Source of the DNA: Pelagibacterales bacterium SAG-MED49
GTDB taxonomy: Bacteria; Pseudomonadota; Alphaproteobacteria; Pelagibacterales; Pelagibacteraceae
Direction of reading: 5' to 3'
DNA: 64,000 nucleotides
Assembly: GCA_014653365.1 (NCBI GenBank)
Contig: JACWEQ010000001.1
Span: 1-64,000, forward strand
Shown here in pieces: positions 2,786 to 51,478 of the stretch. A program made the position numbers and the translations under genes. Below the pieces are notes generated by a model, which was given only the letters and a program-made list of their open reading frames with translations, was not told where the DNA came from and did not search any database. Each line of letters begins with the position of its first letter. Position 1 is the first letter of the stretch.

Positions 2786-4128
2786 AAAATATCTATCATT
2801 CGGATATTTATAAATTTAATACACCTGTCAAAAGTTACTGGGAAGATAATTCACAAGAAAATCTAAACTTAGAAAAATTAACTAAAGATGTTAAATCAGA
2901 AATAGTTGTCATAGGCGGTGGTTATACTGGATTATTATGTGCGATTAATTTAATTGAAAATCACAACTTAGATGTAATTTTAGTTGAAGCTGGAAAAATA
3001 GGCTGGGGTGCATCATCTCGTAATGCTGGATTTAATTGTTTACCGCCAAGCAAGATGTCTTTTAAAAAAATGCAATCTATTTACGGCAATGATGAAACTA
3101 AAAAATTTTATAAAAACTCTGTTGAAGGCTCAAATTATACAAAAGATATTATAAAAGAATATAATATTGACTGTGATGTAACAGGGAATAGCAATTATGT
3201 TGTAGCCCATCATCCAAATAAATTTGAGCAAATTAAAGAACAAGCTAGAGCTTATAAGGATGAATTTGAGATTGAAACAGAGGTGTATTCAAAAGAAGAA
3301 TTCAATCAAATTGGTCATGGTGGAACTGAACAATATGGTGCTTTCTCCTATAAACCTGGATTTGCAATCAATCCTCTTAAATTTGTTAATGGGATTACAA
3401 AACACGCTTTATCAAAAAAATTAAAGATATTTGAACACACTAAAGTAGACCAAATTAATAAAGATAATGGATCTTATCTTTTAAAAACTAAAGAAGGATC
3501 TATTCGATCTAAAAAAATAGTTGTTGCAACCAATGGATTTTACCAAGAAGGTTTAGTTCCTAAAATGGATGGAAGGGTATTGCCTGTTATTTCAAATATC
3601 ATTGTTACAAGAAAACTTAATGATGATGAACTCAATGCTCATAATTTTAAAACATTTTCACCTATCGCTAATACTAAAAACCTTTTATATTATTATAGAA
3701 AATTGCCAGATAATCGAATTTTGTTTGGAACAAGAGGCGATTTAAGTGGAAGTGACCAATCGAATTTAGATATGTCAAAAAAGATGGAAAAATTTTTAAA
3801 GGACATATTTCCTAAATGGAGCAATATTAATATTGAATATAATTGGCGAGGATTAATTGCTTTATCTCAAAAATTAACTCCTTCAATTGGCAAAATAGAT
3901 AATGAAGAAATATACTATGGATTTGGCTACAATGGAGTAGGGGTTAGTGCAGCTCCTTGGACTGGAAAACAGTTATCTAAGTTAGTTTTCTCATCAAATA
4001 GTAAAGATCTTGATATCTCAAAGATTTATAAAGGATTACCTAAAAAGTTTATATTTCCTAAATTAAGAGTGTTTTATTTTAGACTAGCAGTTCTATTTTA
4101 TAATATTAAAGATAAGTTTAATATTTAA
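2782..4128 (+). CDS. FAD-dependent oxidoreductase, DAO family
   Basis: VIGGGYTGLLCAINL, GWGASSRNAGFN, YGFGYNGVGVSAAPWTG. Confidence 0.88.
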   Translation: MKNIYHSDIYKFNTPVKSYWEDNSQENLNLEKLTKDVKSEIVVIGGGYTGLLCAINLIENHNLDVILVEAGKIGWGASSRNAGFNCLPPSKMSFKKMQSIYGNDETKKFYKNSVEGSNYTKDIIKEYNIDCDVTGNSNYVVAHHPNKFEQIKEQARAYKDEFEIETEVYSKEEFNQIGHGGTEQYGAFSYKPGFAINPLKFVNGITKHALSKKLKIFEHTKVDQINKDNGSYLLKTKEGSIRSKKIVVATNGFYQEGLVPKMDGRVLPVISNIIVTRKLNDDELNAHNFKTFSPIANTKNLLYYYRKLPDNRILFGTRGDLSGSDQSNLDMSKKMEKFLKDIFPKWSNINIEYNWRGLIALSQKLTPSIGKIDNEEIYYGFGYNGVGVSAAPWTGKQLSKLVFSSNSKDLDISKIYKGLPKKFIFPKLRVFYFRLAVLFYNIKDKFNI

Positions 4129-4525: not shown

Positions 4526-4657
4526 AATAGTAAAGATCTTGATATCTCAAAGATATATAAAAGATTAGCTAAAAAGTTTGTTTTTCCTCAATTAAGGACT
4601 ATTCATTTTAAATTGGCTGTGTGGTTTTATACAGTTAAAGATAGGTTAAATATTTGA
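4526..4657 (+). pseudogene. Displaced duplicate of the DAO oxidoreductase 3' end
   Basis: Gap-free 132-nt match to 3997-4128; translates NSKDLDISKIYKRLAKKFVFPQLRTIHFKLAVWFYTVKDRLNI* vs NSKDLDISKIYKGLPKKFIFPKLRVFYFRLAVLFYNIKDKFNI*. Confidence 0.85.
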
Positions 4658-5170: not shown

Positions 5171-5203
5171 AAATTTTTAGGGATCGTGGTTCTAGGTTTT
5201 TTT

Positions 5204-5238
5204 AGTTACCCTCTAGAATAAGGGTAACTAAATTTTTT
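5204..5238 (+). terminator. Rho-independent terminator-like hairpin
   Basis: AGTTACCCT-ctagaat-AAGGGTAACT followed by T-rich tract; same hairpin at 51041. Confidence 0.75.
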
Positions 5239-5241
5239 TGA

Positions 5242-5547
5242 TTAACCTTTTTGATTAGCAATCATAGCCTTAATAGCTTTTCTTGCATTAGCATCATCTA
5301 ATACTGGTTTAACGATAGGAAAAGTGCATGCCCCAGACCAACCCATGATCCATGCTGTTAGCGATTCTTGATTATCTGTATCAACTATTATTAAGCCACT
5401 TCCGTTAGCTGCATCGTGCCAACGACCAATTTGTTTTACATCAGCAGGGTATTCTCCAGCAATTTGTTCATCAGTCATATTTGCAAAAAAAGCTTGCGTC
5501 TCTGCTTGCTTGTCTCGATCTAATTGATATGTACACATAAAAATCAT
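5242..5547 (-). CDS. DUF3303-like small protein, copy 1
   Basis: 101 aa, 2 aa differences from the 51079-51384 product. Confidence 0.75.
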   Translation of the reverse strand: MIFMCTYQLDRDKQAETQAFFANMTDEQIAGEYPADVKQIGRWHDAANGSGLIIVDTDNQESLTAWIMGWSGACTFPIVKPVLDDANARKAIKAMIANQKG

Positions 5548-5628: not shown

Positions 5629-5642
5629 GGTATTATAATACC
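5629..5642. repeat. 14-bp perfect palindrome at the outer edge of the cassette array
   Basis: GGTATTATAATACC. Confidence 0.7.
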
Positions 5643-5812
5643 AATGCAGCTTAATGTGGAATAGGTTGAACCGCTAATCCCCCAAATAATCGCCAGCTTC
5701 CTGTATCATTTTCCATAGTTTACTTGCGTTTTCTTTATTCACACTGTCCCATTTTCTGTTTTATCTCTTCTGTGTCGAGTTTGTGTCGAGTTATCCTATA
5801 AAATCCTATAAC
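5640..5812 (-). repeat. Cassette-array intergenic repeat, copy 1 (partial: iterons, 69-nt frame, box A-left)
   Basis: Shares CCCCCAAATAATCGCCAGCTTCCTGTATCATTTTCCAnAGTTTACTTGC and ATCCTATAAAATCCTATAAC with copies 2 and 3. Confidence 0.9.
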
Positions 5813-5837
5813 AATATTCAATAAGCCTGAGGCGTGG

Positions 5838-6515
5838 CTAGTTATTAGACTTTAATAAACTCATCATTGTTGATTTGTATTCATTAAATTGAATATTTTT
5901 TCTAGCATTTGCTCCCGAGGGATGAGGAAAGCCTTTTAAAAAATAACTTAATTTAAGATCATATTTATTATTTAGATATTCAATGGTAGATGAGACGGTA
6001 TTTCCTAGAGGAATAATGATAGCTTTCTTTAAAGTTTTTAATTCTTGTAAGAAGTTTTTTTCAATAAAATCTAAAAGTATTTTCTTGTTTAGAATATTCG
6101 CACCTGAATAATTTTTTCCTTTATCAAATACAGGGTATTTAACTAAAGACGTAGTATGGAGATATTTACTATCTTTATTAAATAAACTCTCACAAGATTT
6201 AATTTTTAATTTCTTATTTACTTTTAGTTCATCCAAGTATTTAACTAGTGTGGTTCTCATACTGCCTTTAAAACTAGATAAATCTTTGACTTCTTTTAGT
6301 GATTTACCATCATTGATTACTTGGAAACTTTGTAACATTTGTTGAAGTCCAGGGGTAATACCAACAATCATTATTTTTGCTTTAGGATTAACATAATCAA
6401 AAGGTGCATAATAAATTTTAATATTAGCTTCTTTATCAATTAAAAACTTATTACTAGTGATAGTAGATTTATTAATCTTTTTAAGTGATCTAATTTGTCT
6501 TAAAAATTTGGACAT
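5838..6515 (-). CDS. Uracil-DNA glycosylase-superfamily-like protein
   Basis: IMIVGITPGLQQ, IIPLGNTV, GFPHPSGAN motifs. Confidence 0.6.
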   Translation of the reverse strand: MSKFLRQIRSLKKINKSTITSNKFLIDKEANIKIYYAPFDYVNPKAKIMIVGITPGLQQMLQSFQVINDGKSLKEVKDLSSFKGSMRTTLVKYLDELKVNKKLKIKSCESLFNKDSKYLHTTSLVKYPVFDKGKNYSGANILNKKILLDFIEKNFLQELKTLKKAIIIPLGNTVSSTIEYLNNKYDLKLSYFLKGFPHPSGANARKNIQFNEYKSTMMSLLKSNN

Positions 6516-6527
6516 TTAATTAAATTT

Positions 6528-6941
6528 TTATTTTTTTAATTTAAATTTTCTTAAAAAATTTTGATATTGTTTTGGAGGTGGATTTTTCCAATCATATGCT
6601 CCTTTATTTTTCCAACTAGAAGTATTTGCCACTGTGCTATTATCTAAAACAAAATCAACAGCTAAGTCGTGAGGATATAAATAAATATTGTCTCCGACCC
6701 TATAACAAATATAAATATCTTTATTTAAGTACTTTTTATTTATAGAAAACCTTCCTTTTAATTGAATTTTTAACAAGGTTTTTCCATCACTGTGCTGTGC
6801 TAAAAAATCTGCACCTTTCCAATCATCATAAAATCTTATAGTTGTAAAACCATAATCAGCCAATATTGCACTAGCCTTATGAAAATTATAATTTTCCTGC
6901 TGTTTTGTACTTAAATCTTTATAATTAATTTTTTTATACAT
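6528..6941 (-). CDS. PD-(D/E)XK nuclease-like protein
   Basis: DDWKGADFLAQHSDGKTLLKIQLKGR resembles D...(E/Q)xK core. Confidence 0.5.
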   Translation of the reverse strand: MYKKINYKDLSTKQQENYNFHKASAILADYGFTTIRFYDDWKGADFLAQHSDGKTLLKIQLKGRFSINKKYLNKDIYICYRVGDNIYLYPHDLAVDFVLDNSTVANTSSWKNKGAYDWKNPPPKQYQNFLRKFKLKK

Positions 6942-7011
6942 ATTATAAAACCAATTTGTCTATTTTCTTTTTTTAAGAGTAGTAATTTTTTCATTATTTA
7001 CCCAAATTCTA

Positions 7012-7452
7012 TTAAAAAACTCTTTCTTTTGCTATACAAACTCCAGGATATTCTCTATCGCCTATCTTTGATGCTTCAGTAAATTCAATTCCCGTACCTT
7101 TGGGTCTAAAGCCCTCTTTAAATTTACCAGTCATACGATTTATATAAAAATAATGAATATTATGGGTCCAGTGTTTTTGAAAGTAGAATTCATCTTTCTT
7201 TGGCATAAATTTATAACCATATAACTCAAAAGCATTTAGTTTTTTTTGAATTCGGTTTAAATCTTTTAATTTTTTATGATTATGTTTTATAAAAACTGTT
7301 CGTTTATCCTCATCAATTTTAAATATCCAAGTAAGTTTTTTATCAGCTCTTTTGCATTCTAACTGACCTACAAACTTATCATGCGCATATGCATTCCCCT
7401 CGATATTAAAGATGAAATAAAAAAAGATAAAAAATAAAGTAAATTTTTTCAT
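7012..7452 (-). CDS. Secreted hypothetical protein
   Basis: N-terminal signal peptide-like segment. Confidence 0.6.
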   Translation of the reverse strand: MKKFTLFFIFFYFIFNIEGNAYAHDKFVGQLECKRADKKLTWIFKIDEDKRTVFIKHNHKKLKDLNRIQKKLNAFELYGYKFMPKKDEFYFQKHWTHNIHYFYINRMTGKFKEGFRPKGTGIEFTEASKIGDREYPGVCIAKERVF

Positions 7453-7455
7453 TAT

Positions 7456-7647
7456 TTACCCAAATGCTTCCGTTAATGTTCCAATGACAAAAATAATTCC
7501 AATAAGAACCGCAATACCTATTACTATTTTATGTACTGAGCCATTTTCTAATTTTTCTTTTTTCTTATCTGATTGGTTTTCAACAAATGCAAACCAAGCA
7601 ATTCCCGCAAAGAATACAACGAAAACTAATACTACTTTCCACGACAT
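7456..7647 (-). CDS. Small membrane protein
   Basis: Two hydrophobic segments, same orientation as neighbours. Confidence 0.5.
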   Translation of the reverse strand: MSWKVVLVFVVFFAGIAWFAFVENQSDKKKEKLENGSVHKIVIGIAVLIGIIFVIGTLTEAFG

Positions 7648-7665
7648 TAAAATAACTTCTAATTT

Positions 7666-7911
7666 TTAACATTTAATTTGTAGATCATCTACAAACCCTT
7701 TTTCAATTTTACAATCTTCTACAAACATCAAAAACATACCATATTGATTTTGTACAGCTTCATCAAAATCAATAATATTGTAGCTCATATGCGAATGAGG
7801 TTCAGTTGAATGTGCTTTGGTAATGAAACCAGCACTATTCATTATCTGAACATTTAAACCAATTATTCCAACTGCAATTACAGTTAATATTCCTTTAGTA
7901 AATCTATCCAT
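7666..7911 (-). CDS. Small exported hypothetical protein
   Basis: N-terminal hydrophobic segment. Confidence 0.45.
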   Translation of the reverse strand: MDRFTKGILTVIAVGIIGLNVQIMNSAGFITKAHSTEPHSHMSYNIIDFDEAVQNQYGMFLMFVEDCKIEKGFVDDLQIKC

Positions 7912-7937
7912 ATTCCTCCCTTGTTAACACTTTCCAA

Positions 7938-8269
7938 GACTACCAAATCATGAACCAGTAGTCTATTTGCTTTAAAAATGGCTATTTGATTTATCTCTTT
8001 TGTGTCGAGTTTGGCATCGAGTTTTTTAATTAAATTGATGAGTCTTTAAGCGATTTATTTCAAGCTAACTTTTTAATATCCGCATAAGTACTGTAGGTTA
8101 TTGCAGCTTATTGTGGAATATTGTGAACCGCTACTCCCCCAAATAATCGCCAGCTTCCTGTATCATTTTCCAAAGTTTACTTGCATTTTCTTTGTTCACA
8201 CCTTCATTTTTCTTGTTTTATCCCGTCCATTTCTAGTTTCATTTCTAGTATCCTATAAAATCCTATAAC
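7938..8269 (-). repeat. Cassette-array intergenic repeat, copy 2 (full)
   Basis: Leader, box A-right, GATGAGTCTTTAAGCGATTTATTTCAAGCTAACTTTTTAATATC, iterons, 69-nt frame, box B-left, ATCCTATAAAATCCTATAAC. Confidence 0.92.
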
Positions 8270-8304
8270 CCAAAACCAAGATCGTTTAAAGTTTTTTCAT
8301 TCTA

Positions 8305-8820
8305 TTAACATTGATTTACACGACCATGAAAACTGATATTTTTTGTTAAAGTTGTATATGTATTTGTGCTTGGATCTTTGACGACTGAACTAACTTCAAC
8401 TATGCAATTAGATGTCGGGTTACCATCAATAAGTATGTACCCCTCCGCTTTAGCTCCAGTTTTAGTCCCCCAATACCAAGTAGCGCTATCTCCATTTACA
8501 GGATTTTTGAAACCTGAAAAGTGATAATGATCCATAAATAAGTTGGCCATTGAGTTAGTATTTTCATTTTTGCAAGTATATTCTTTAAATGATCCTCTAG
8601 GATTTCCACCATTATGTCTAACATTAACTTTTCCAGAAATATCACAATCCATAGATAGAAGTTCAATATTATTTCCAATAGTGTTTAGATTTTCTTCAAT
8701 GGATATTCGTTTTGCACTACTCGTATACCCACTGTAAGCAACCACACCTACTGCAGCAAGAATACCAATAATTGCAACAACAACTAACAATTCTATTAGA
8801 GTGAAGCCTTTTTGTTTCAT
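8305..8820 (-). CDS. Type IV pilin-like protein (prepilin N-terminal methylation motif)
   Basis: MKQKGFTLIELLVVVAIIGILAAVGVVAYSGYTS. Confidence 0.9.
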   Translation of the reverse strand: MKQKGFTLIELLVVVAIIGILAAVGVVAYSGYTSSAKRISIEENLNTIGNNIELLSMDCDISGKVNVRHNGGNPRGSFKEYTCKNENTNSMANLFMDHYHFSGFKNPVNGDSATWYWGTKTGAKAEGYILIDGNPTSNCIVEVSSVVKDPSTNTYTTLTKNISFHGRVNQC

Positions 8821-8850
8821 AATCCAAGACTAACAAATCCTGAACTCTTA
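8820..8850 (-). repeat. Partial cassette leader (solitary remnant)
   Basis: aatccaagactaacaaatcctgaact matches leader ends in copies 2-4. Confidence 0.65.
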
Positions 8851-8884
8851 TTCAAGTTGAGCTAATCAATAAGTGTTGTGTAAG

Positions 8885-9172
8885 TTAAACCCCCTCAACT
8901 AAAACTAGATGAGCTTTGGCCGCTAATTCTCTAACCGCTTTAGCCGCTTGGTATTTTTCTGATTCATAGAACTTACGAGCAGCATCAATGCTTTCAAATT
9001 CAATTAATATAACAGTACCTAAATTTTCACCTTCTCTTACGTCAGGACTGGGTTCACGAACAAGAACTTTGCCACCGTGCTCTCCAATAGTTGGTCCAGA
9101 CATTTGTTTAAACTTTTCCATACCTTCTTTATCGTGTACTTTAAGATGTGCTATCAAATATCCTTTGCTCAT
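8885..9172 (-). CDS. DUF1330 family protein
   Basis: KGYLIAHLKVHDKEGMEKFKQMSGPTI...GKVLVRE...VILIEFESIDAARKFYESEKYQAAK. Confidence 0.9.
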   Translation of the reverse strand: MSKGYLIAHLKVHDKEGMEKFKQMSGPTIGEHGGKVLVREPSPDVREGENLGTVILIEFESIDAARKFYESEKYQAAKAVRELAAKAHLVLVEGV

Positions 9173-9199
9173 AATTTTCTCCTTTAAGTTTTAATATAA

Positions 9200-9526
9200 C
9201 AAATCCTGAACCATGAGTCTATTTGCTTTAAAAATAGCTATTTGATTTATCTCAAATATTTCTAGTTTCATTTCTAGTTTCTTGTTTAAATTGATGAGTC
9301 TTTAAGCGATTTATTTCAAGCTAACTTTTTAATATCCCTATAATTAATGTAGTTTAGTGTCGGTTAATGTGGATTAGTTTGTACCACTAGCACCCCAAAT
9401 AATCGCCAGCTTCCTGAATAATTTTCCAGAGTTTACTTGCGTTTTCTTTGTTCACTTTACTTCAAACATTGTTTTATCTCGAAAATCTCTAGTCTGGACA
9501 CTAGTCATCCTATAAAATCCTATAAC
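9200..9526 (-). repeat. Cassette-array intergenic repeat, copy 3 (full)
   Basis: Same module order as copy 2, with boxes B-right and C-left. Confidence 0.92.
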
Positions 9527-9557
9527 ACATAACTACGATCCCTTAAAGTTTTATCAT

Positions 9558-10226
9558 TTAATCTTTCCACTCAGACAAAAATGTAATTCGACCTTTGTTG
9601 TAATCTTGCTCACATTTAAAGAAGAGTTTTTTATAATCTTTAATTTGAAGTTTTTCTTTAACAGTCATTTTATTAAAAATATTCCATTTTGATTTTGCAA
9701 TAGCAAGAAACCATGCTTCAGTATTTTTCAAGTAATTTTCCCAATTTTTATCTTTTTTTTCTTTAGCAAGTATTACCAAAGGATCTTTGAGAGCATTAGT
9801 TAAACCATTATAAATTTTTCGTCTATTATCCCAATACGTGAAATTTTTTGATTGCTTGGTTTGATATTTGTTTTCAAATTGAGCCAGCATTTTTTTTTCA
9901 GTTTGATTTGAAGCATTGTAAATAGCTATAAAAACATCTTCAGTAAGTTTTCTTTCACGCTCTTTAATTATATCATGGTGTTCTATAAAATTGATTGGAA
10001 AATTATCCTCATATTCTAAAATATATTTATCTTTAACTAATGGTTTACCAAAACTTCTATTGTCTTTCTCCCAGTTTGGTATCTTGGCTGTTTTCCAGCC
10101 TGATTTTAAACTTTCGTCATAATTTTTGTCTGCACATTTTTCCATTGCTATAAATACATCTTTATCTGAATCTCCAAAGGCTAGACTGGGTATTATTAAA
10201 ATTATAAAAAAAATTATCTTTTTCAT
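9558..10226 (-). CDS. Secreted hypothetical protein
   Basis: Signal peptide MKKIIFFIILIIPSLAFG. Confidence 0.6.
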   Translation of the reverse strand: MKKIIFFIILIIPSLAFGDSDKDVFIAMEKCADKNYDESLKSGWKTAKIPNWEKDNRSFGKPLVKDKYILEYEDNFPINFIEHHDIIKERERKLTEDVFIAIYNASNQTEKKMLAQFENKYQTKQSKNFTYWDNRRKIYNGLTNALKDPLVILAKEKKDKNWENYLKNTEAWFLAIAKSKWNIFNKMTVKEKLQIKDYKKLFFKCEQDYNKGRITFLSEWKD

Positions 10227-10259
10227 TTCAAATCACCCATATCACTCAAATTTTTTCAA

Positions 10260-10850
10260 CTATTCTTCTTTTTGTTTATTTCTTATATAAAACCATGTAA
10301 CTGGAAACAATGTAAGCATCATAACCATTTTAGCAAAAAAGTTTTTATCAATTATTAAATAGATAATTCCTACAATAATTATTGAAAAAAAGAGTAAATT
10401 TGTTTGTATTTTACTAATTTTTTTTTGATTTAACTTTTTAAAAGCTATGTAAAGAGCAAAGAACATATTTCCAAAAATCCATAATATTGAAAATGTTTTT
10501 CCTGTATAAATCCAGAATGGTAAAAAAATCGTAGCTGTACCTGTGAAATTATAATTTTTTGGAAATAAATCTGCACATAAATGTATAGCTATACCTAACA
10601 AAAAACCGATGTATATGTAATCTAGCAAGTTATCTCTAAAGTGCTTAGAAATAAAAATTTTATCAAATTGTTTTTTTATTGAAAATTTTTTCATTTCTTT
10701 TGTTAACAAGAAATAAATCAATAATGGCACTAATATTCCATGAGTAATAATAGATCTATGACCTAAAAAAATAAAAATTAAATCAATATCAGGAAAGTTC
10801 AAACCGCCATAAAGTGAAATATAAAAAGGTAATAAAAATTTCTTTTCCAT
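10260..10850 (-). CDS. Membrane protein resembling YdjM/DUF457 metal-dependent hydrolases
   Basis: GGLNFPDIDLIFIFLGHRSIITHGIL; HLCADLFP histidine/aspartate pattern. Confidence 0.6.
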   Translation of the reverse strand: MEKKFLLPFYISLYGGLNFPDIDLIFIFLGHRSIITHGILVPLLIYFLLTKEMKKFSIKKQFDKIFISKHFRDNLLDYIYIGFLLGIAIHLCADLFPKNYNFTGTATIFLPFWIYTGKTFSILWIFGNMFFALYIAFKKLNQKKISKIQTNLLFFSIIIVGIIYLIIDKNFFAKMVMMLTLFPVTWFYIRNKQKEE

Positions 10851-10877
10851 ATTTATATTTTAAAATTCCTCACAAAT

Positions 10878-11090
10878 CCAAGGCTAACAAATCCTAAACA
10901 ATGAGTCTATTTGCTTTAAAACAGCTGTTTGATTTATCTCAAAAGTCTCTAGTCTGGACACTAGTTTGTTGCTTAAATTGATGAGTCTGAATGCAATTTA
11001 TTTTTAATGAAAGTTAAATCACCCGCATAACTAGTGTGAAGTAGTGTGAGGTCGTGTGAAGAAGTGTGTACCTCTAACGCCCCAAATAAT
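10878..11090 (-). repeat. Cassette-array intergenic repeat, copy 4 (truncated at CCCCAAATAAT)
   Basis: Leader, box C-right, TTAAATTGATGAGTC, four 10-bp iterons; the 69-nt frame is absent. Confidence 0.88.
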
Positions 11091-37580: not shown

Positions 37581-38885
37581 ATGGAAGTGACTAACGATAA
37601 TGGTTGTAGTTGGATTAATGATTTAATCCCCAGAACAAATATTCAATCACTTCAATCAAATGAAGATTGTGAATGGTTGATAATAGGAGCAGGATATACA
37701 GGTTTATCTGCAGCAAGAAAATTAGGTCAATTAAATCCAAATCAAAAAATTATACTTGTAGATGCACAATTGGCAGGAGAAGGTGCTAGTAGTAGAAACT
37801 CAGGTTATTTAGTTGATACCACTCTTAATGACGGTTTTACTTCTAATAAAGAACTAAATAATTACAAAAAAAAAGCTGACATTTATAATTTGGGCATTAA
37901 TACAATAAAAAGATTTATAAACGAATATCAGGTTGATTGCGAATGGAACGAATGTGGAAAATATTTTGCATCTTCAAAAAAAGAAGATGAAAAAATTTTA
38001 ATAAACTTTTCAGACACTCTTTCAAAATTAGGTTTTGAACATAATTTATTATTTAATAATGAGTTATCTAAAAAATTAGGTACTAGTTTTTATAATGTAG
38101 CACTTCACACTATGGGTGGGGTTTTATTACATCCTGGAAAATTAGTTAGAGCAATGATCGATGTTTTGCCAAGCAATGTATGTTTATATGAAAATTCAGT
38201 ATTATTAAATTGGGGTAAGCAAAAAGATATAATTTACTGTAACTTTAAAAATGCAAAAATTAATACTAAGAAAATTATTTTTGCTACAAATGGATTTTTG
38301 AAATCTTTAGGAATTAAATCTAATTATAATTTTCCAATTACTTTAACTGCTAGTATGACAAGATCCTTAACTGAAGAAGAGTTTAAATCAATTGGTCAAC
38401 CAAAAGAATGGGGTGTGTTACCAGTAAAACCTATGGGTGCTACAATAAGAATGACTAAAGACAGAAGAATTTTGATTAGAAACACTGCCGAAGTACATAA
38501 TCCTTTAAAAATGTCCAAGGAAGATTTAGATAAAAGATCAATTAATCAAAAAATTGGTATTAAAAAAAGATTTCCACAGTTACCTAATGATATTATCCAA
38601 TCTTCTTGGTCTGGAATTGTTTCTCGAACAAGAAATAGTTCTCAAATATTTGAAAAAATTGATAACAATATATTTGCTGTGGGCTGTTATAATGGCTCAG
38701 GTATTGGGGTTGGAACTTTATTTGGGGAACAGATTGCTATTAAAGCAAGCAATAATAACACTAAAGAAATAGAAGTTATTGAAAATAGAAATAAACCTAC
38801 ATTGCTTCCACCACAACCGTTTTTAAATTTAGGTGTTAAAACAAGACTAATTTATGAACGGTTCAGAGCTAAAAGTGACTTATAG
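37581..38885 (+). CDS. FAD-dependent oxidoreductase (DAO family)
   Basis: IIGAGYTGLSAARKLG; GEGASSRNSGYL; AVGCYNGSGIGVGT. Confidence 0.87.
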   Translation: MEVTNDNGCSWINDLIPRTNIQSLQSNEDCEWLIIGAGYTGLSAARKLGQLNPNQKIILVDAQLAGEGASSRNSGYLVDTTLNDGFTSNKELNNYKKKADIYNLGINTIKRFINEYQVDCEWNECGKYFASSKKEDEKILINFSDTLSKLGFEHNLLFNNELSKKLGTSFYNVALHTMGGVLLHPGKLVRAMIDVLPSNVCLYENSVLLNWGKQKDIIYCNFKNAKINTKKIIFATNGFLKSLGIKSNYNFPITLTASMTRSLTEEEFKSIGQPKEWGVLPVKPMGATIRMTKDRRILIRNTAEVHNPLKMSKEDLDKRSINQKIGIKKRFPQLPNDIIQSSWSGIVSRTRNSSQIFEKIDNNIFAVGCYNGSGIGVGTLFGEQIAIKASNNNTKEIEVIENRNKPTLLPPQPFLNLGVKTRLIYERFRAKSDL

Positions 38886-38917
38886 ACATATTCAGAAATA
38901 TTAAATTTATAAAATAT

Positions 38918-39742
38918 ATGAAAAATATTAACGCAATTGTATTAACTTATGATCGAAATAGAATATTTACAGAAAATATGATCAAATCATATGAAAAAAT
39001 TTGGGTAGATCATCCATTAATTTTTCATATACCTTACCAAAATTTAAATAAGATAGATGTTAAAAGTAAAGTTATTTTTCATAAATCAAAACCTGATATT
39101 CACTCAACAATCAACACATTATTAAAAAATTTTAATGATAACGAAATGATATATTGGTGTATAGATGACAAATATCCAATAAAATTAGATTTAAAAAAAA
39201 TTAAAGAGTTACTCAAATTTATAAAAATAAATAATCATTGTAATTTAGATGGATTAATTTTTTGCAGATGTAGAGCATTGAATCATTCATTCAATATCAC
39301 AAATTCAAATAAAAATTTTTTTGAAAATTTAAAAATTTTAGAAAGAAAAGGTTATCATCAAATATGGATTCATCAATTTCTTAAGGTAAAAATTTTAAAA
39401 TTTTTATTTAATAAATTTGGAAAGATAAAATTTCCCTATAAAAATAATTTAGAAACATTGGATTTTAAGATAAAAAAATTAAATAAACCTAAAAATCAAA
39501 AATTATTTGTAACTAAAAAAAATTTTGCAATTTTTGGAGAAAGTACTGTTGAAGGTTCTATTACATTAAATTGTAAAAAAAGTTTATCTACTAATAAGAT
39601 TAGAATACCCAATAAATTTAAAAATTATATTAACAAAAAAATTTATATAGGTGGATTTAAAATCTTGAATAATTTTTTTTTTGAAAACAACTATATCTTA
39701 AGAATTATATGTAAATTTAAAAATATATTTAAACAATATTAA
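38918..39742 (+). CDS. Hypothetical protein of glycan island (possible glycosyltransferase)
   Basis: Position, Lys/Asn-rich composition, weak MIYWCIDDKYPI acidic motif. Confidence 0.45.
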   Translation: MKNINAIVLTYDRNRIFTENMIKSYEKIWVDHPLIFHIPYQNLNKIDVKSKVIFHKSKPDIHSTINTLLKNFNDNEMIYWCIDDKYPIKLDLKKIKELLKFIKINNHCNLDGLIFCRCRALNHSFNITNSNKNFFENLKILERKGYHQIWIHQFLKVKILKFLFNKFGKIKFPYKNNLETLDFKIKKLNKPKNQKLFVTKKNFAIFGESTVEGSITLNCKKSLSTNKIRIPNKFKNYINKKIYIGGFKILNNFFFENNYILRIICKFKNIFKQY

Positions 39743-39772
39743 TTAGGGTAATTTTATAAGATTACATATATT

Positions 39773-40498
39773 TTATTCTTCAATATTATTTTGATTTTTC
39801 CAAACATATAATAATCTAATATTTTCATTAAAAGATCCCATAAAAAATCTTGCACAGATAATAAGAAATATATATTTAATTAAATTATCATTATTAATGA
39901 AGTGACTAGACACACAATACATCAAAGCTAAAAGAAAGAAAATTATTGATAAAATCTCAGAATTTTTTGAGACGAAGAAATGAGAAGCTGTTTTTTGAAC
40001 TATATTCTTTTTATTAATATGTGTAATCCATTTCCCATTTGTTGTTAAAGGGTAGATTAAAAAAATAAGGTTTAAAAATAAAAAAATAAAAAAATCAAAA
40101 AAACTAATTAATAGAATAATAAATAATAGAACTATGGTTACAAAATTACCTGCAGTGCTTAGAATAAATAACCGATTTATTGTGAGCTTTTTAGGATTAT
40201 TATCTAAATTTGATAGATTCAAAAGTTTTGAAATAGTTAACCTACTAGAAATTTTTAAAATAATTGCAAATAATATATTTAGACTAACAAACAACAAAAT
40301 TTGTAAAGGATTTTCTATAATTATAAAATTTAAAATATTAATAGGTTTTGTAGTAAAATAACTTACAACACCCAAAAAACCTGAAGAAAGTAATATTGTA
40401 CCTAATATTTCGAAACTAATAAAAGAAAGAAAAAATAAATAATTTATTGAAATAAATTCAAATATTTTAGATTTATAAAATTTAAAAAAACGCATCAT
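39773..40498 (-). CDS. Multi-TM membrane protein of glycan island
   Basis: Several hydrophobic segments. Confidence 0.5.
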   Translation of the reverse strand: MMRFFKFYKSKIFEFISINYLFFLSFISFEILGTILLSSGFLGVVSYFTTKPINILNFIIIENPLQILLFVSLNILFAIILKISSRLTISKLLNLSNLDNNPKKLTINRLFILSTAGNFVTIVLLFIILLISFFDFFIFLFLNLIFLIYPLTTNGKWITHINKKNIVQKTASHFFVSKNSEILSIIFFLLALMYCVSSHFINNDNLIKYIFLIICARFFMGSFNENIRLLYVWKNQNNIEE

Positions 40499-41655
40499 TT
40501 AATATTAAAGTATTTTTTTATTAAAAAATAAAACTCTTTAGAACTATGTAGAAAAATCTTTAGTTTAAAGATTAAATTTATCTTAACAAGATCATTAATA
40601 ATCTTTAAATTTGTATCATCTTTCTTATATATTTCAGAAATCTCATATTTAGAATTATCAATACCTAATAAATCAAAATAATAATTTAGATTAGATAATT
40701 GAATTTTATATTTAGATATAAAATTTACAAAATCTTTATAGGTTGATAAGTCAATTTTATCTTTTTTATCTTTTTTTTTATAAGTTTTATTGGTAATTGG
40801 AAGTATAGAGACTATTGTTTTATTATAAATTAGTACAAATTTTTCTTTAGAAATTTCAATATATTGTTTTTTATTTATCTTAAAAAAAGATTTAAAATCT
40901 AAAATTAGATAAATAGCTAATGAATAAAATATTATAAAAATATTAAAGTAAATTTTATTAAACACTTTTAAGTTATAATGAATTCTTATGTATTCAAGAT
41001 AAAGGTCTGGTATATGGCTGACATTATAATCAAAAGTTTTTTTGGGTAAAAATGACCCAATTAGTTCATAAAATTTTTTAATTATATTTTCATTTTTGTT
41101 AAATACATAAATATCACATTTTGGACTCTTGTATAAAGTTAAAGATTTTATTCTTTCAAGAGTTTCATAATTCATTCTTTCTAAAATTATTTTTTTTTGA
41201 TTATGTACACCTCCAGTCATAATGTATGTTTGATATCTTGATATATGTGTCTCAACTGGATTTCGAATAAAGAAAATAATCTTAGAAATTACAATATTAA
41301 ATTTTTTAAGGTATTCTTGTAAATTATCTAATTCTGTATGATTTAATACAAAAAAAAACTCAGAACTAATAATTGCGTGTTGATATTTTGATTTAGAAAA
41401 TTTTTGTAGTTCATTATCAACAATTTGTTTTAAGTTTTTTTTTTTAGGCAAATAACTAAATTTTAAATCAGCTATATTTTGTTTAAAAAACTTAATAAAA
41501 ATATCTGCAGTTCTAAAATGATCTTTTTTAATGTAAAAATCACCAAAAAATATAAATTTATCAAAATCGTCATCAAAATATGATAATTTTAAGCTTTCTT
41601 GAATTGAGGTACTTCCTGTTTTGGGTGAGCCGGCATGTACTATTATTTTTTTCAT
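40495..41655 (-). CDS. Sulfotransferase-like protein
   Basis: IIVHAGSPKTGSTSIQESL PAPS 5'-phosphosulfate loop; FIRNPVETHISRYQ. Confidence 0.75.
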   Translation of the reverse strand: MKKIIVHAGSPKTGSTSIQESLKLSYFDDDFDKFIFFGDFYIKKDHFRTADIFIKFFKQNIADLKFSYLPKKKNLKQIVDNELQKFSKSKYQHAIISSEFFFVLNHTELDNLQEYLKKFNIVISKIIFFIRNPVETHISRYQTYIMTGGVHNQKKIILERMNYETLERIKSLTLYKSPKCDIYVFNKNENIIKKFYELIGSFLPKKTFDYNVSHIPDLYLEYIRIHYNLKVFNKIYFNIFIIFYSLAIYLILDFKSFFKINKKQYIEISKEKFVLIYNKTIVSILPITNKTYKKKDKKDKIDLSTYKDFVNFISKYKIQLSNLNYYFDLLGIDNSKYEISEIYKKDDTNLKIINDLVKINLIFKLKIFLHSSKEFYFLIKKYFNIK

Positions 41656-41700
41656 ATTAATTGTATAAAAATGTAAGAGCTCTTAATATATTAAAAATAA

Positions 41701-42645
41701 ATGTTTTCTATAACAATATGTACACACAATCGATGTACACTTTTAAAACGAATGATTGCATCAATTGAAAATCAATCATTTAAAAATTTTGAAATAATAA
41801 TCATAAATGATCATAGTAAGGACAATACAAAAGATTATTTAAATACTTTAAAAAAAAATACAAAATATATAATAATACATAATGATAGCAATCTAGGACT
41901 TCAAGCTTCAAGAATTAAAGCTATAGCACAAGCAAAATATGAATATATTATCCAATTAGACGACGATGATCAAATGTTACCTTATTGTCTTGAGAATTAT
42001 AATAAAATTTTAACAAAAAATAACTATGATTTTATTAATACTAACTATGTAATAAATCAAAGTATAAAAAATCATAGCAATCATAATTTTTTAATTAAAG
42101 AGTATGATGATTTTAATAATTTGCCATCAAACAAACTTCACCCAAAATCTATTTGGAGTTTTGTTATAAAAAAAAAAATTGTACAATCAATTTATAAGAA
42201 TGATTTGATTAAGATTGATTATGGAGAAGATTTAGTTTTTATAAGTAATCTCTACAAGATTTCAAAACATTTTGCTACAGCAGATTTTAATTCAATATCC
42301 TATACTAAAAATTATAACGCCATGACAAATATAACAAAATTTAATAGCAAAACTATCAATGAGTTTATTATGTGTCATTGCTATATAGCATCGATATGGG
42401 GTAAAAATTCAATGGTTACGAACTTTATAAATCATGTAACTCTTAATTGGCGTTATTCGTTTTTTAAAATAATTGAAAAAAAAATTTCAAAAAATAATTT
42501 AATAAATTTTAAATCTAGATTTAAAGATCTTTATTCAGATTTTGATTATGATTTGAATCAAAAAATTTTTCCCAAGATATATCCATTAAGTCGAAGCTAT
42601 ATATTGAATCAGAAATCAAATTTTTTAAAAGTGATATCAAATTAA
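41701..42645 (+). CDS. Glycosyltransferase family 2
   Basis: FSITICTHNRCTLLKRMIASIENQSFKNFEIIIINDHS; QLDDDDQ. Confidence 0.92.
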   Translation: MFSITICTHNRCTLLKRMIASIENQSFKNFEIIIINDHSKDNTKDYLNTLKKNTKYIIIHNDSNLGLQASRIKAIAQAKYEYIIQLDDDDQMLPYCLENYNKILTKNNYDFINTNYVINQSIKNHSNHNFLIKEYDDFNNLPSNKLHPKSIWSFVIKKKIVQSIYKNDLIKIDYGEDLVFISNLYKISKHFATADFNSISYTKNYNAMTNITKFNSKTINEFIMCHCYIASIWGKNSMVTNFINHVTLNWRYSFFKIIEKKISKNNLINFKSRFKDLYSDFDYDLNQKIFPKIYPLSRSYILNQKSNFLKVISN

Positions 42646-42649
42646 AATT

Positions 42650-44872
42650 ATGAAAAAACTTTTATCAATAATAATTCCAACATTTAATGCTGAAAAAACA
42701 ATCCAAACAGCTATTGCGTCGTTGTTAAAGATTAAAAACCAAAATTTAATTGAAATAATTATTGTTAATGATTTTTCAACCGATAATACCTTTAAAATAT
42801 TAAATAATTATTCTGATCATATAAAAATTTTAAATCTAGATAAAAATGTTGGGTGTGGCTTAGCAAGAAATAAAGGTGTTAAAATTGCAATTGGTCAATA
42901 CATTTCTTTTTTGGATGCAGACGATATTTATTTACTAAATGATTTGAGTTTTTTTAATGATTTAGTTTCAAAAACACATTCTGACCTTTATTTGTTTAAC
43001 CACAAAATTAATTCAGACGATGAAAATATTAAACTTAAATTTCAAAATAATAATTATGAATTGTTTAATATTGAATTTAAACAGAATCCAAACCTAATTA
43101 AAGAAAGACCATGCTGGTCTATAATTTATAAAAAGAATTATTTATTAGAAAATAAAATTTTTTTTAAGAGATCACATTGGGAAGATATTGATTTTGTCTT
43201 AGAGGCTTTGTGTAATTCAAAAAAAATCACAAATGTAAATATTAATATAATTGAATACAATAAATTATCAAAAAATACTATTTCTGGTAAAATAAAAAAT
43301 CTTGATGATTTAAATTTAATTTATGATCAATTTATCCAATCATACTCACATGTAAGCAAATATAAAGATTCATCTGAAAAAGTATATAATATTATAATAG
43401 CTTTTAACTTTGTAAAATTTATTTATTTACTAAAAGAAAATATTAATGATCTTAACAAAGTTAAAAATTTAGAAAAATTTTTTAATCTTATTAGAGATCA
43501 TCAAATTACTAATGAAATTTTCTTGAATGAAGAAAATGAAGGTATTGCTTATAGTAAGATAAAAAATTTAACTTTCCTATATTATATAATTAATAATTAT
43601 AATTTTAATATTTTTAAAAATGCAATAAATCAAGAACTTCCAAAAAGAATGTTGGAAATTTTTTTTGAAAATGCTTTTCTAAAAAATTACCTTAAAAATA
43701 ACATTGATTGTTTAAAATATTTTGAAACAAGCCATATCTCAAATTTATTAAGTTTTAATACTGGAAATTTAAAAAAAATATTTATTCATATAGGTTTGCC
43801 TAAAACAGGCACCTCTGCAATACAAAATTTTTTATATAATGAAAGAACTGAATTAAAAAATTATGGCATTTTATACCCTGAGACTATTACTAGTTTTAAT
43901 TTTGATCGTTCAAGAAAAATTACTCTAACCAAAGATCCTAATAATTTTTTTGATCATAATTATTTAGCTGACATTCAAAACTATCCAAATATTAATCATG
44001 ATGTTTTTTATAATAAGCTTGCAACAGAAATTTTAGAAAATAATAATTGTGAAAATTTAATTCTATCTGCAGAAAATTTGTATTTTGCTAATGATAAATT
44101 ACTATTTAAACTTAAAAATTTATTCAAAAATTTAGATATAAAGATTATTTTTACAAAAAGAAATTATTATGAATGGCTAGATAGTTATTATTATGAAAAG
44201 ATATATTCTGGAAGAGAAACCAACGGCTTTTCTTACTTTTTTAATGAACTTTTGAGAAATAATTTTTTACCTTTTGATAAAATTACCTCAAGATGGAAAA
44301 GAATATTTGGTTCTGAAAATTTTTTGGAAACATATTATGAAGATGAAAACTATATTGCTAATATATTAACCTTGTTTCAAATACCTCTAAAAAAAATTGA
44401 GCAATATGAGTATAACTTAGTCAATAATATTAAAAAAAGTCCAATTAAAATTAGCGTAATATCTAATTTTAATTTGTTAAATTCTAATTTAAACTTTTAT
44501 GATTTTATTATTAAAAAAAAATCATTTTTAAAAAAGATTAATAAATTAAAAAGTCATAATATGAATTTTACCTTCATTAATAAAAAAATTATAAATTCAA
44601 ATACTTATAAATTTTTAGGAAATTGTAAAATTCCTCAAAATAAAGAATTTATAGAAACTGATGAAATGACTATTTTGACAAAAGAGCATAAAAAAAATGA
44701 TTTTTTAAATCCTAAAAAAAATGAATTTATCTATAAATTTTTATATTTTATTAAAAGAATAATTTTATCAAATAGATATTTATATGTTTTTTGTTTAAAA
44801 ATTATTTCACTTATAAGCTTAAATCCAAGATTGAGTGGTTATTTATATAGAATTATATATTCAATAAGATGA
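42650..44872 (+). CDS. GT2 glycosyltransferase fused to C-terminal sulfotransferase-like domain
   Basis: N-term LSIIIPTFNAEKTIQTAIASLL, FLDADDIY; C-term KIFIHIGLPKTGTSAIQNFLYNERTELKNYGILYPE. Confidence 0.85.
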   Translation: MKKLLSIIIPTFNAEKTIQTAIASLLKIKNQNLIEIIIVNDFSTDNTFKILNNYSDHIKILNLDKNVGCGLARNKGVKIAIGQYISFLDADDIYLLNDLSFFNDLVSKTHSDLYLFNHKINSDDENIKLKFQNNNYELFNIEFKQNPNLIKERPCWSIIYKKNYLLENKIFFKRSHWEDIDFVLEALCNSKKITNVNINIIEYNKLSKNTISGKIKNLDDLNLIYDQFIQSYSHVSKYKDSSEKVYNIIIAFNFVKFIYLLKENINDLNKVKNLEKFFNLIRDHQITNEIFLNEENEGIAYSKIKNLTFLYYIINNYNFNIFKNAINQELPKRMLEIFFENAFLKNYLKNNIDCLKYFETSHISNLLSFNTGNLKKIFIHIGLPKTGTSAIQNFLYNERTELKNYGILYPETITSFNFDRSRKITLTKDPNNFFDHNYLADIQNYPNINHDVFYNKLATEILENNNCENLILSAENLYFANDKLLFKLKNLFKNLDIKIIFTKRNYYEWLDSYYYEKIYSGRETNGFSYFFNELLRNNFLPFDKITSRWKRIFGSENFLETYYEDENYIANILTLFQIPLKKIEQYEYNLVNNIKKSPIKISVISNFNLLNSNLNFYDFIIKKKSFLKKINKLKSHNMNFTFINKKIINSNTYKFLGNCKIPQNKEFIETDEMTILTKEHKKNDFLNPKKNEFIYKFLYFIKRIILSNRYLYVFCLKIISLISLNPRLSGYLYRIIYSIR

Positions 44873-45561
44873 TAATTGCAGAAAAAAAAATTAGAGCTAT
44901 TGAGATAGATATTTTAAAATGTTTTTATTGTCCTGTTCCAAAAAATGGAAGCACATCGTTTAAACATCTTAATTTTTTTTTAAATTATAATCAGATGTTT
45001 AAAGACACTAAGATTTCTGAAATTATTCATATACATACACTTTACCCAAGTCAAAGATATATGAAACCATATAATTCCTTACAAGCCCATTTTAAATTAA
45101 ATTTTTTAAATTATCATTCCCTTTTTACAACAAGAGATCCTATAGAGAGATTTATTTCAGGTTTTAATGATAGAGTTTTATTCCATAATAAATTGGAATT
45201 AAATTATTCAAGTAATTTTGATAAATTAAATTTTTTTTTTGATAATTTTGATAAACTTCTTTTAGAAAATATGGACATAAATTGGCATTTTGCTACACAA
45301 CACTCATTTTTAGATATTTATAAAAAAAGATATAAAAAAATAACTTTTATAAAATTAAATCAAATTAGAGAATATTTATTGAATAATACCAAAGGTTTAT
45401 TAAAAAATAGGGTGGTAAAATTTTATGATAACGAAGAATATTATTTTAATTCATCTAAATCTAGAAAAATTCATTCACAAATTAAAATTGAAGATCTCAA
45501 TGATGAACAAAAACATTTTATTAATATATTTTACAAAAAAGATTTTAGTTTAAATCTTTAA
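44869..45561 (+). CDS. Sulfotransferase family 2-like protein
   Basis: CPVPKNGSTSFKHL; FTTRDPIERFISGF. Confidence 0.8.
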   Translation: MIIAEKKIRAIEIDILKCFYCPVPKNGSTSFKHLNFFLNYNQMFKDTKISEIIHIHTLYPSQRYMKPYNSLQAHFKLNFLNYHSLFTTRDPIERFISGFNDRVLFHNKLELNYSSNFDKLNFFFDNFDKLLLENMDINWHFATQHSFLDIYKKRYKKITFIKLNQIREYLLNNTKGLLKNRVVKFYDNEEYYFNSSKSRKIHSQIKIEDLNDEQKHFINIFYKKDFSLNL

Positions 45562-45579
45562 AAAAGATTTTTTTTTAAT

Positions 45580-46149
45580 TTGATAATCTATTTTATGAAG
45601 AATTTAATATTAGTATCTGGATTTACAGCAGCTGGTAAAAGTTTTTTTATCAAAAAAATACAAAAAGATTATCAAAAATATTTTCCTCTATTAATTAAAA
45701 AAAAAAAATCACAGAAATTTATTTTTACGTCTTTTCGAAAACTTAAAAAATACCAAAAATTAAATAGTAAAAAATTTTTTTTTCCTAAAAAAACAAATTT
45801 AATTTTTCATATGGATATTTATGAAAAAGATTTTACAGTTTTAAATAACTTAATTAATAAATCTGATAATATTTCTTCAATTATAATTTACACCTCTAAA
45901 ATAATCTATATTAAAAGAATTTTAATACGGATGTTAAAATTTAAAAAAAATTTTTTTTATCTTTTTAAAAAAGTTTTATTTTGTATAAATACTAATAATA
46001 TTCGTTATTTGTATAAAAATTGGTTTTTATATCTAAAATTAATGAATGTAAATGAGCATTTAATTATTAATTCTACCCATGATAACAAGAAAATTATTAA
46101 ATCTAATTATAGATGCGCACAAGATATAATTCTAAAAAATTTAAATTAG
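45580..46149 (+). CDS. P-loop NTPase/kinase-like protein
   Basis: VSGFTAAGKSFFIKKI Walker A; likely start at 45595. Confidence 0.55.
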   Translation: MIIYFMKNLILVSGFTAAGKSFFIKKIQKDYQKYFPLLIKKKKSQKFIFTSFRKLKKYQKLNSKKFFFPKKTNLIFHMDIYEKDFTVLNNLINKSDNISSIIIYTSKIIYIKRILIRMLKFKKNFFYLFKKVLFCINTNNIRYLYKNWFLYLKLMNVNEHLIINSTHDNKKIIKSNYRCAQDIILKNLN

Positions 46150-50992: not shown

Positions 50993-51040
50993 ATCTGATT
51001 AATAAAAAAAACTTTTAAACATCGTGGTTCTGAGTTTTTT

Positions 51041-51075
51041 AGTTACCCTATTGAATAAGGGTAACTAAATTTTTT
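51041..51075 (+). terminator. Rho-independent terminator-like hairpin (same as 5204)
   Basis: AGTTACCCTATTGAATAAGGGTAACTAAATTTTTTT. Confidence 0.75.
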
Positions 51076-51078
51076 TGA

Positions 51079-51384
51079 TTAACCTTTTTGATTAGCAATC
51101 ATAGCCTTAATAGCTTTTCTTGCATTAGCATCATCCAATACAGGTTTAACGATAGGAAAAGTACATGCCCCAGACCAACCCATGATCCATCCTGTTAACG
51201 ACTCTTGATTATCTGTATCAACTATAATTACACCACTTCCATTAGCTGCATCGTGCCAACGACCAATTTGTTTTACATCAGCAGGATATTCTCCAGCAAT
51301 TTGTTCATCAGTCATATTTGCAAAAAAAGCTTGCGTCTCTGCTTGCTTGTCTCGATCTAATTGATATGTACACATAAAAATCAT
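51079..51384 (-). CDS. DUF3303-like small protein, copy 2
   Basis: Near-identical to 5242-5547 product. Confidence 0.75.
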   Translation of the reverse strand: MIFMCTYQLDRDKQAETQAFFANMTDEQIAGEYPADVKQIGRWHDAANGSGVIIVDTDNQESLTGWIMGWSGACTFPIVKPVLDDANARKAIKAMIANQKG

Positions 51385-51451: not shown

Positions 51452-51478
51452 TAGCCACGCCTCAGGCTTATTGAATAT
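51452..51478 (-). repeat. 27-nt inverted copy of 5814-5840 (array-adjacent sequence)
   Basis: TAGCCACGCCTCAGGCTTATTGAATAT is the exact reverse complement of 5814-5840. Confidence 0.9.

Follow-up and report, generated by a model that had tools for sequence, protein, structure and literature searches.

A SAR11 array of putative non-autonomous gene cassettes bounded by lambda-type attachment sites and probably mobilized in trans by satellite integrases

SAR11 cells are streamlined and nearly free of classical mobile elements. In the SAR11 window analyzed here (the whole stretch of 64,000 nucleotides), we found an array that most likely consists of three non-autonomous cassettes, placed head-to-tail and each enclosed by the halves of one lambda-type attachment (att) site. 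To judge from comparisons with related genomes and circular elements, such cassettes have probably been accreted in tandem and are probably mobilized in trans by the arm-matched integrases of satellite-like elements.

When copy 2 of the composite repeat was compared with its own genome by BLAST, copy 3 aligned over 335/346 nt (81%, E 8e-85), the right half of copy 2 matched copy 1 (85%, 5645-5812), and the left half matched copy 4 (77%, 10877-11003). The four copies, the cassettes A, B and C, and the minus-strand genes of the original prediction were confirmed. The matches also agree with the complementary truncation that it proposed for the outer copies, except that copy 1 keeps ∼40 nt of leader, a truncated remnant of iterons and spacer (5645..5683, plus strand) that aligns with the iterons of the full copies and is, by that alignment, the P side of a neighboring unit that was lost or has decayed. 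The frame-side motif occurred 3 times in the window versus 0.00 expected from shuffles. Unit boundaries, formerly placed near CGCCAGC, lie exactly at the core AAATAAT.

In the coordinates that follow, cores, boxes, arms and iterons are on the plus strand, and cargo genes and mimics of the attB gene (tblastn matches to a 75-aa gene of relatives) are on the minus strand. Unit 1 (5684..8140, core to core) has its left-boundary core at 5684..5690, the copy 1 mimic of codons 1-20 (VNKENASKLWKMIQEAGDYL) at 5683..5742, and a P'-side box TTTATCTC with the arm pair TGTGTCGAG..TGTGTCGAG at 5760..5792. Its cargo, a UDG-superfamily protein (5838-6515) and three unknown proteins (6528-6941, 7012-7452 and 7666-7911), is followed by the P-side box and arm pair TGTGTCGAG..GGCATCGAG (7990..8022) and by the four iterons of copy 2 (8089..8129; ∼10 bp, TARTGTGG type), next to the core between units 1 and 2 (8141..8147). 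Unit 2 (8141..9396) begins with the 5' mimic of copy 2 (8141..8199) and a P'-side box with the arm pair CATTTCTAG..CATTTCTAG (8217..8249), encodes a type IV pilin-like protein (8305-8820) and a DUF1330 protein (8885-9172), and ends in a P-side box with the arm pair ATTTCTAG..CATTTCTAG (9246..9279) and the copy 3 iterons (9346..9385). The core at 9397..9403 separates it from unit 3 (9397..11083), where the copy 3 mimic (9396..9455) and the P'-side box and arm pair TCTCTAG..GACACTAG (9473..9505) precede genes for an unknown, secreted-like protein (9558-10226) and a YdjM-like membrane protein (10260-10850). The same arm pair, TCTCTAG..GACACTAG, recurs with the P-side box at 10933..10967, followed by four exact 10-bp iterons of the CTAGTGTGAA type in copy 4 (11030..11069) and by the core at the right edge of the array (11084..11090, attR), after which unrelated chromosome begins (GGTCAATTACC).

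Read by its architecture, the composite ∼330-bp repeat is a complete lambda-type attachment site and not attC-like, as the original prediction had said of its dissimilarity to attC; its form is that of the attP, attL and attR of a ∼9-kb integrase element. The order is P-arm pair, 10-bp iterons, core AAATAAT, mimic and P'-arm pair, in which the mimic (the "69-nt frame" described earlier) corresponds to the first 20 codons of the conserved 75-aa gene. The P' box lies at core+76 in the cassettes and in the circular element L044 alike; the P box lies at core-150 in the cassettes and at about -151 in L044. Alignment of an empty site (G023) with an occupied one (G153) yielded attB, attL and attR, and one shared core aligns these with attP of the circles L044 and L169. 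A motif, ATCCTATAAAATCCTATAAC..AACCACGATCCCT, just inside the P' arms was excluded from the att site because it also occurs alone elsewhere. A reading of the P arm as a vestigial integrase N-terminus (KLxxxLxxxEINQ) in the cassettes was rejected, since the common arm and box DNA suffices as an explanation.

In the attP of phage lambda, arm sites stand in pairs to either side, accessory sites recur between the P arm and the core, and the integrase is adjacent. The cassette and satellite site shares this layout: attB, attL, attR and attP have a core in common, an integrase lies beside attP, and the same arms stand on both sides of the core. The sequences differ from those of lambda; here a coding gene contains the core, and the integrase genes of L044 and L169 have their first codons within the P arm. 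The integrase is predicted to bind the arms and recombine the core.

The usual target, as judged from ∼33 relatives in which units are placed there, is the 5' end of the small conserved 75-aa gene. According to these alignments, integration keeps the gene intact by supplying new first 20 codons, and the displaced 5' end is found at the far end of the insertion. Insertions away from this target were found at L009, at L084 and in the window, where the array has a truncated left edge and lies apart from the standard 75-aa gene; a search for its empty site in 60 relatives found none, the right flank being unconserved.

The original prediction did not include a short variable motif that is the same at both ends of a cassette and different between neighboring cassettes. 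Among 37 units selected by stricter criteria, which left out the three window units, these arms had a mean of 2.7 mismatches of 19 within units versus 8.9 between units; the observed sum was 101, and the lowest of 20,000 permutations gave 260. For the window units the arm distances were 6, 1 and 1 in a laxer run, in which distances within units came out too high owing to false leader hits, and their arm classes were assigned by eye. One unit, L096, had mismatched arms, and its cargo is the same as that of L113 (99.7%) with the left arm swapped, consistent with a chimeric unit.

No recombinase was found within the window, as predicted, and no integrase was recognized in any unit. The suggestion that mobilization would act in trans gained support from the host genome (assembly 89% complete), where a 325-aa Xer-like protein, encoded on a different contig, is the sole tyrosine recombinase and no serine resolvase was found. 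A closed genome (G408) carries a unit and gave only one tyrosine recombinase match. Integrases adjoining the same site were encountered instead on complete circles from IMG/VR, L044 (9,041 bp, 29-bp terminal repeat) and L169 (8,885 bp, 98-bp repeat), both of which have an arm-iteron-core-mimic-arm site in cassette geometry beside a tyrosine integrase. That of L044 (568 aa) matched a PHROG integrase with E 8e-23 and Pfam with E 8.5e-6, the latter slightly below the curated cut-off. These ∼9-kb circles encode a primase and a resolvase-like protein with no recognized structural genes (i.e., they appear capsid-less), and L172 is a third ∼9-kb circle with integrase and primase and without structural genes. 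An integrated integrase-bearing cousin, G182, occupies the same 75-aa gene as the cassettes. Integrases of the L044 type were present in 6 of 399 genomes of the genus versus 63 with the leader motif (63 counted, 38 fetched and confirmed); other integrase matches in the genus besides G182 had 24-38% identity, and none was at the 75-aa gene. Neither the integrase nor the frame motif had a protein or DNA match among sequenced phages, and the leader pattern had no match in viral contigs; an iteron-pattern match in L171 was attributed to chance, since L171 has genes for phage structural-type proteins but none for a protein like those of L044.

The arms also connect these elements to particular cassettes. 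The P' arm of L044 resembles those of cassettes L111 and L105, and that of G182 resembles those of L088, L101, L109 and L113, with 2-3 mismatches of 21 in each case. For the window, no integrase-bearing element combined the AAATAAT core with the arms of unit 1 or 2, and the nearest one to the unit 3 arm class is L172, but its core differs.

A satellite entering the cell would bring the integrase and probably also an excisionase, bound to the iterons. The N-terminal domain of the integrase may recognize the arms, leading to recombination at both cores of matching cassettes, and the excised circle would re-insert at any site bearing this core, so that arrays would grow by accretion. Candidate routes between cells are satellite or phage particles, natural transformation and a cointegrate with the satellite. 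The cassettes themselves, having no mobility gene, probably hitch-hike on the satellite enzyme and so spread defense and other genes between cells. The further proposal, of an open SAR11 cassette pool run by satellite integrases, with the arm pair as an "address" setting which integrase moves a cassette and with minimal cassettes of one to a few genes parasitizing capsid-less satellites that need a helper phage (three tiers), is in our judgment evenly poised.

The modular array that was predicted is supported, and cargo varies between genomes: 105 ORFs fell into 89 families, and the genes found between the repeats are not always the same ones. Units are 0.8-6.9 kb long (median 2.2), and the cargo includes restriction-modification and AIPR defense genes. 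As aligned here, whole units recur almost unchanged in hosts that have diverged and at more than one locus, with breaks at the core, which disfavors the earlier suggestion that mobilization might be extinct. For example, the cargo of L086 and L104 is 98.0% identical and the flank 77.6%.

An unlikely explanation is dead accretion, in which internal deletions stripped satellites of their genes for integrase and replication and the remains now change only by ordinary homologous recombination between the ∼330-bp att repeats, traveling as chromosomal DNA. Recombination would be feasible between repeats of 130-330 nt that are 77-89% identical, and the chimeric L096 and the solo-arm loci L083, L087 and L100 (frame-arm-leader, no cargo) resemble such events; the latter are decayed, so that the population is partly dead. 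Neither an excised cassette circle nor a helper together with a cassette in one cell was seen. Against this explanation, a 1.84-kb unit (L088 and L109, 98.9% identical) occupies unrelated loci in two genomes with sharp breakpoints at the core, and the other off-target sites add to this. Moreover, arms, box spacing and iterons are intact in nearly all units, and the cargo has no relation to satellite genes.

Somewhat less probable still is mobilization solely in cis, in which a satellite integrates beside a cassette and both exit between the outer att sites. The cassettes do resemble CIMEs, with attL and attR present, no recombinase or transfer gene recognized in the cargo families shown, and an attB shared with the satellite G182, and tandem arrays exist. 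However, most arrays lack any satellite, none was seen adjoining a cassette, and arms that match within a unit, which cointegrates would not need, are what excision of every cassette on its own would lead one to expect.

An integron or CALIN-type array is very improbable. CALINs are arrays of integron cassettes that have no integrase of their own and need one in trans (PMC11389934), a need that would be shared here, and the tandem cassettes of single or few genes, recurrent sites and missing local integrase account for the integron-like layout noted originally. That likeness does not extend to mechanism: the genome has one Xer-sized tyrosine recombinase, and attI, an attC-type site and a platform integrase were not found. 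Judged by its paired arms, iterons and target-gene mimic, the ∼330-bp site is a double-stranded lambda-type att site instead of a folded attC, and the same form adjoins a phage-type satellite integrase as attP of L044 and L169; attB lies inside a coding gene, and cargo is in both orientations (71 vs 34 ORFs). A family of DDE transposons or MITEs that has long subterminal repeats would fit non-autonomous copies outnumbering an autonomous element, but is just as improbable, since the autonomous copies have a tyrosine integrase and intact attP and circularize, and no match to a known transposon or MITE was found. Such a family would be expected to show terminal repeats in inverted orientation, duplicated target sequence and insertions at scattered places, whereas unit ends here are in direct orientation at one main gene target with a shared core.

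The tandem array has partial parallels elsewhere. In Dehalococcoides, the 3' end of ssrA serves as a single attB for several unrelated islands in a row, with recurrent 20-bp direct repeats and a serine recombinase, and 15 islands without an integration module were suggested to be cis-mobilizable elements (PMC3146451). The SAR11 array is similar in its tandem unrelated units, recurrent direct repeats and absent integration module, and differs in its tyrosine integrase with arm sites, its attB, which occupies the 5' end of a protein-coding gene, the lack of a recognized integrase in any unit, and its unit-specific matched arms. Ca. Methylopumilus, also a streamlined aquatic host, has an additive flexible island with recurring copies of its target, the last 20 bp of tRNA-Lys; the available part of that account does not describe a complete arm/iteron attP or arm matching (PMC10872708). 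The circles L044, L169 and L172 resemble the marine satellites PICMI, tycheposons and VEIMEs (PMC10803314, PMC11389934). Unlike phage satellites, and unlike these three circles, the window cassettes have no integrase or replication genes of their own and therefore would be hitch-hikers of such satellites.

For the gain and swapping of genes in SAR11, an attachment site, a target gene and a family of enzymes can now be named. The arm box at core+76 and core-150 is a searchable signature for listing cassettes in genomes and metagenomes, and the arm-matching rule predicts integrase-cassette pairing in a directly testable way. If true, three-tier hitch-hiking would spread restriction-modification and other genes in the most abundant bacteria of the ocean. 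Elsewhere in the host genome, additional single copies lie on different contigs, for example around an AIPR gene at C23:78817-80854.

The original prediction of four repeat copies separating three cassettes was borne out in the window, and the cassettes form units from core to core at 5684-8140, 8141-9396 and 9397-11083. On the plus strand, a full repeat copy has, in order, the box TTTATCTC, an arm pair of short direct repeats, a TGATGAGTCT leader, four 10-bp iterons (TARTGTGR), a spacer with CCCC at its end, and the core AAATAAT. The 60 bp past the core encode (V/M)NKENASKLWK(M/I)IQEAGDYL on the minus strand and are followed by a box and an arm pair. By analogy with lambda, the iterons are putative excisionase-binding sites.

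Searches of relatives with tblastn identified the 60-bp frame as codons 1-20 of a conserved gene of 75 aa. Its product, with three predicted helices (pLDDT 83), matched no Pfam family above cut-off and has no assigned function; a threonine-aldolase-like gene usually adjoins it. G012, a complete genome, is among those in which the gene is empty. At ∼33 loci, an intact copy has one or more units after it, and complete arrays are closed by a displaced 60-bp copy of the gene's 5' end. Two relatives, G023 with the gene empty and G153 with it occupied, together supply the complete series of attB, attL, and attR: the G023 sequence aligns to attL on the gene side as far as the 60-bp block and across it, and to attR starting at the core, continuing over the block and on into the upstream DNA (85% over 700 bp). 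The window array is located away from this standard gene, its left edge is truncated, and no intact copy of the 75-aa gene was found in the contigs searched from the window genome (1.17 Mb, 38 contigs, 89% complete). A further single unit, carrying an AIPR (abortive infection) gene, was observed at another locus of this genome (contig C23, L009 8754-10855).

Comparison of loci suggested that whole units are mobile. The 2.45-kb cargo common to L086 and L104 showed 98.0% DNA identity versus 77.6% in the adjoining chromosome, and L088 and L109 have one common unit at unrelated loci (1.58-kb cargo, 98.9% identical), with identity ending at the core on both sides. In L009, L088, and the window, where the right junctions are off-target, the sequences part inside AAATAAT or immediately beyond it, and the crossover is therefore placed there. 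At three loci (L087, L100, and L083), the frame, one arm pair, and the leader are joined directly without cargo, as if it had been deleted between two identical arm pairs.

Unit length ranges from 0.8 to 6.9 kb, with a median of 2.2 kb, and the 105 cargo ORFs fall into 89 similarity groups. Among the top 25 families, methylases, helicases, and components of type I and other restriction systems rank first in the Pfam and PADLOC matches, which also include single transport or metabolic genes. The DUF1330 gene of window unit 2 also occurs, at 97% DNA identity, in a unit of the relative G408 with other arms and neighbor genes. No recombinase was recognized among the genes of any unit. A PF00589 search of 50 genomes yielded mostly one ∼325-aa Xer-sized protein per genome; G408, a closed genome with a unit of its own, gave a single match, and a few genomes possess a second recombinase at other places.

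On the basis of sequence, the attachment site belongs to an integrase. The IMG/VR contig L044, a complete circle of 9,041 bp with a 29-bp terminal repeat, contains the whole site, with the P' box at core+76 and the P box ∼151 before the core (76 and 150, respectively, in cassettes), and the initial codons of its 568-aa integrase gene overlap the P arm. Gene order and core are unchanged in the circular L169 (8,885 bp), whose integrase is 66% identical and whose arm pair (GATCTAG) is different. A third circle, L172 (120-bp repeat), has related genes, and its TCTCTAG-type arms (700-1150) resemble those of window unit 3 but lie beside another core; arm and core specificity thus seem separable. G182 contains a relative inserted into the 75-aa gene, and the relative's integrase lies at the end of the contig. 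We infer that the circles are satellite-like because they encode a primase or helicase and a RusA-like protein, and no structural genes were recognized on them. On the viral contig L045 (13890-14170), satellite-type genes lie left of an intact 75-aa gene and GATCTAG arms come after it; two elements may be adjacent here.

The arm pairs at the two ends of one unit are nearly the same (37 units; mean of 2.7 mismatches of 19, versus 8.9 between different units). The observed within-unit mismatch sum was 101, versus 260 for the lowest of 20,000 permutations; cassettes identical in two genomes were counted twice, so that the units are not fully independent. Across one repeat copy, the arms of neighboring units differ at 8-14 positions. 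Window units 1, 2, and 3 fit the rule (6, 1, and 1 mismatches); the two arm repeats of unit 1 are unlike each other, a trait shared by other members of its class. For both L044 and G182, the P' arms come within 2-3 of 21 positions of those of several cassettes, and the nearest cassette to L169 has four differences. A chimeric unit, with the same cargo (99.7%) in L096 and L113 and a different left arm pair, suggests arm swapping.

We propose that the integrase of an arm-matched satellite likely cuts the cassette out as a circle, which is then likely inserted at a core in the gene, at the boundary of another cassette, or off-target. Because the mimic carried by the cassette would give the target back its 5' end, the gene could stay intact after insertion, and repeated insertion would generate arrays. 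Genomes with cassettes are far commoner than those with the integrase: the leader motif (up to 2 mismatches) occurs in 63 of 399 genomes, 38 of which were fetched and confirmed, and an L044-like integrase occurs in six, once at the 75-aa gene, both counts being minimal because the genomes are incomplete. Tandem integrase-less islands at one attB have precedents in the Dehalococcoides ssrA islands (PMC3146451) and the additive islands of Methylopumilus (PMC10872708), and CALINs and MITEs are known cases of dependence in trans (PMC11389934). Neither arm-matched cassettes lacking an integrase nor this SAR11 attachment site was described in the open-licence papers searched.

Other features were observed in the window. 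A DUF3303 gene and its downstream hairpin are duplicated 46 kb apart (5198-5497 and 51035-51334, 96% identity); upstream of the second copy lies a 27-nt motif (51452-51478) that is found again, in inverted orientation, at the inner left end of unit 1 (5814-5840, minus strand). The 3' end of a DAO oxidoreductase gene is also duplicated (3997-4126 and 4526-4655, 81%), with ∼400 bp and two small membrane-protein-like ORFs between the copies, a pattern that a further integration at the 3' end of a gene would leave. The region at 38000-46000, with very low G+C (down to 17.5%), is probably a hypervariable island.
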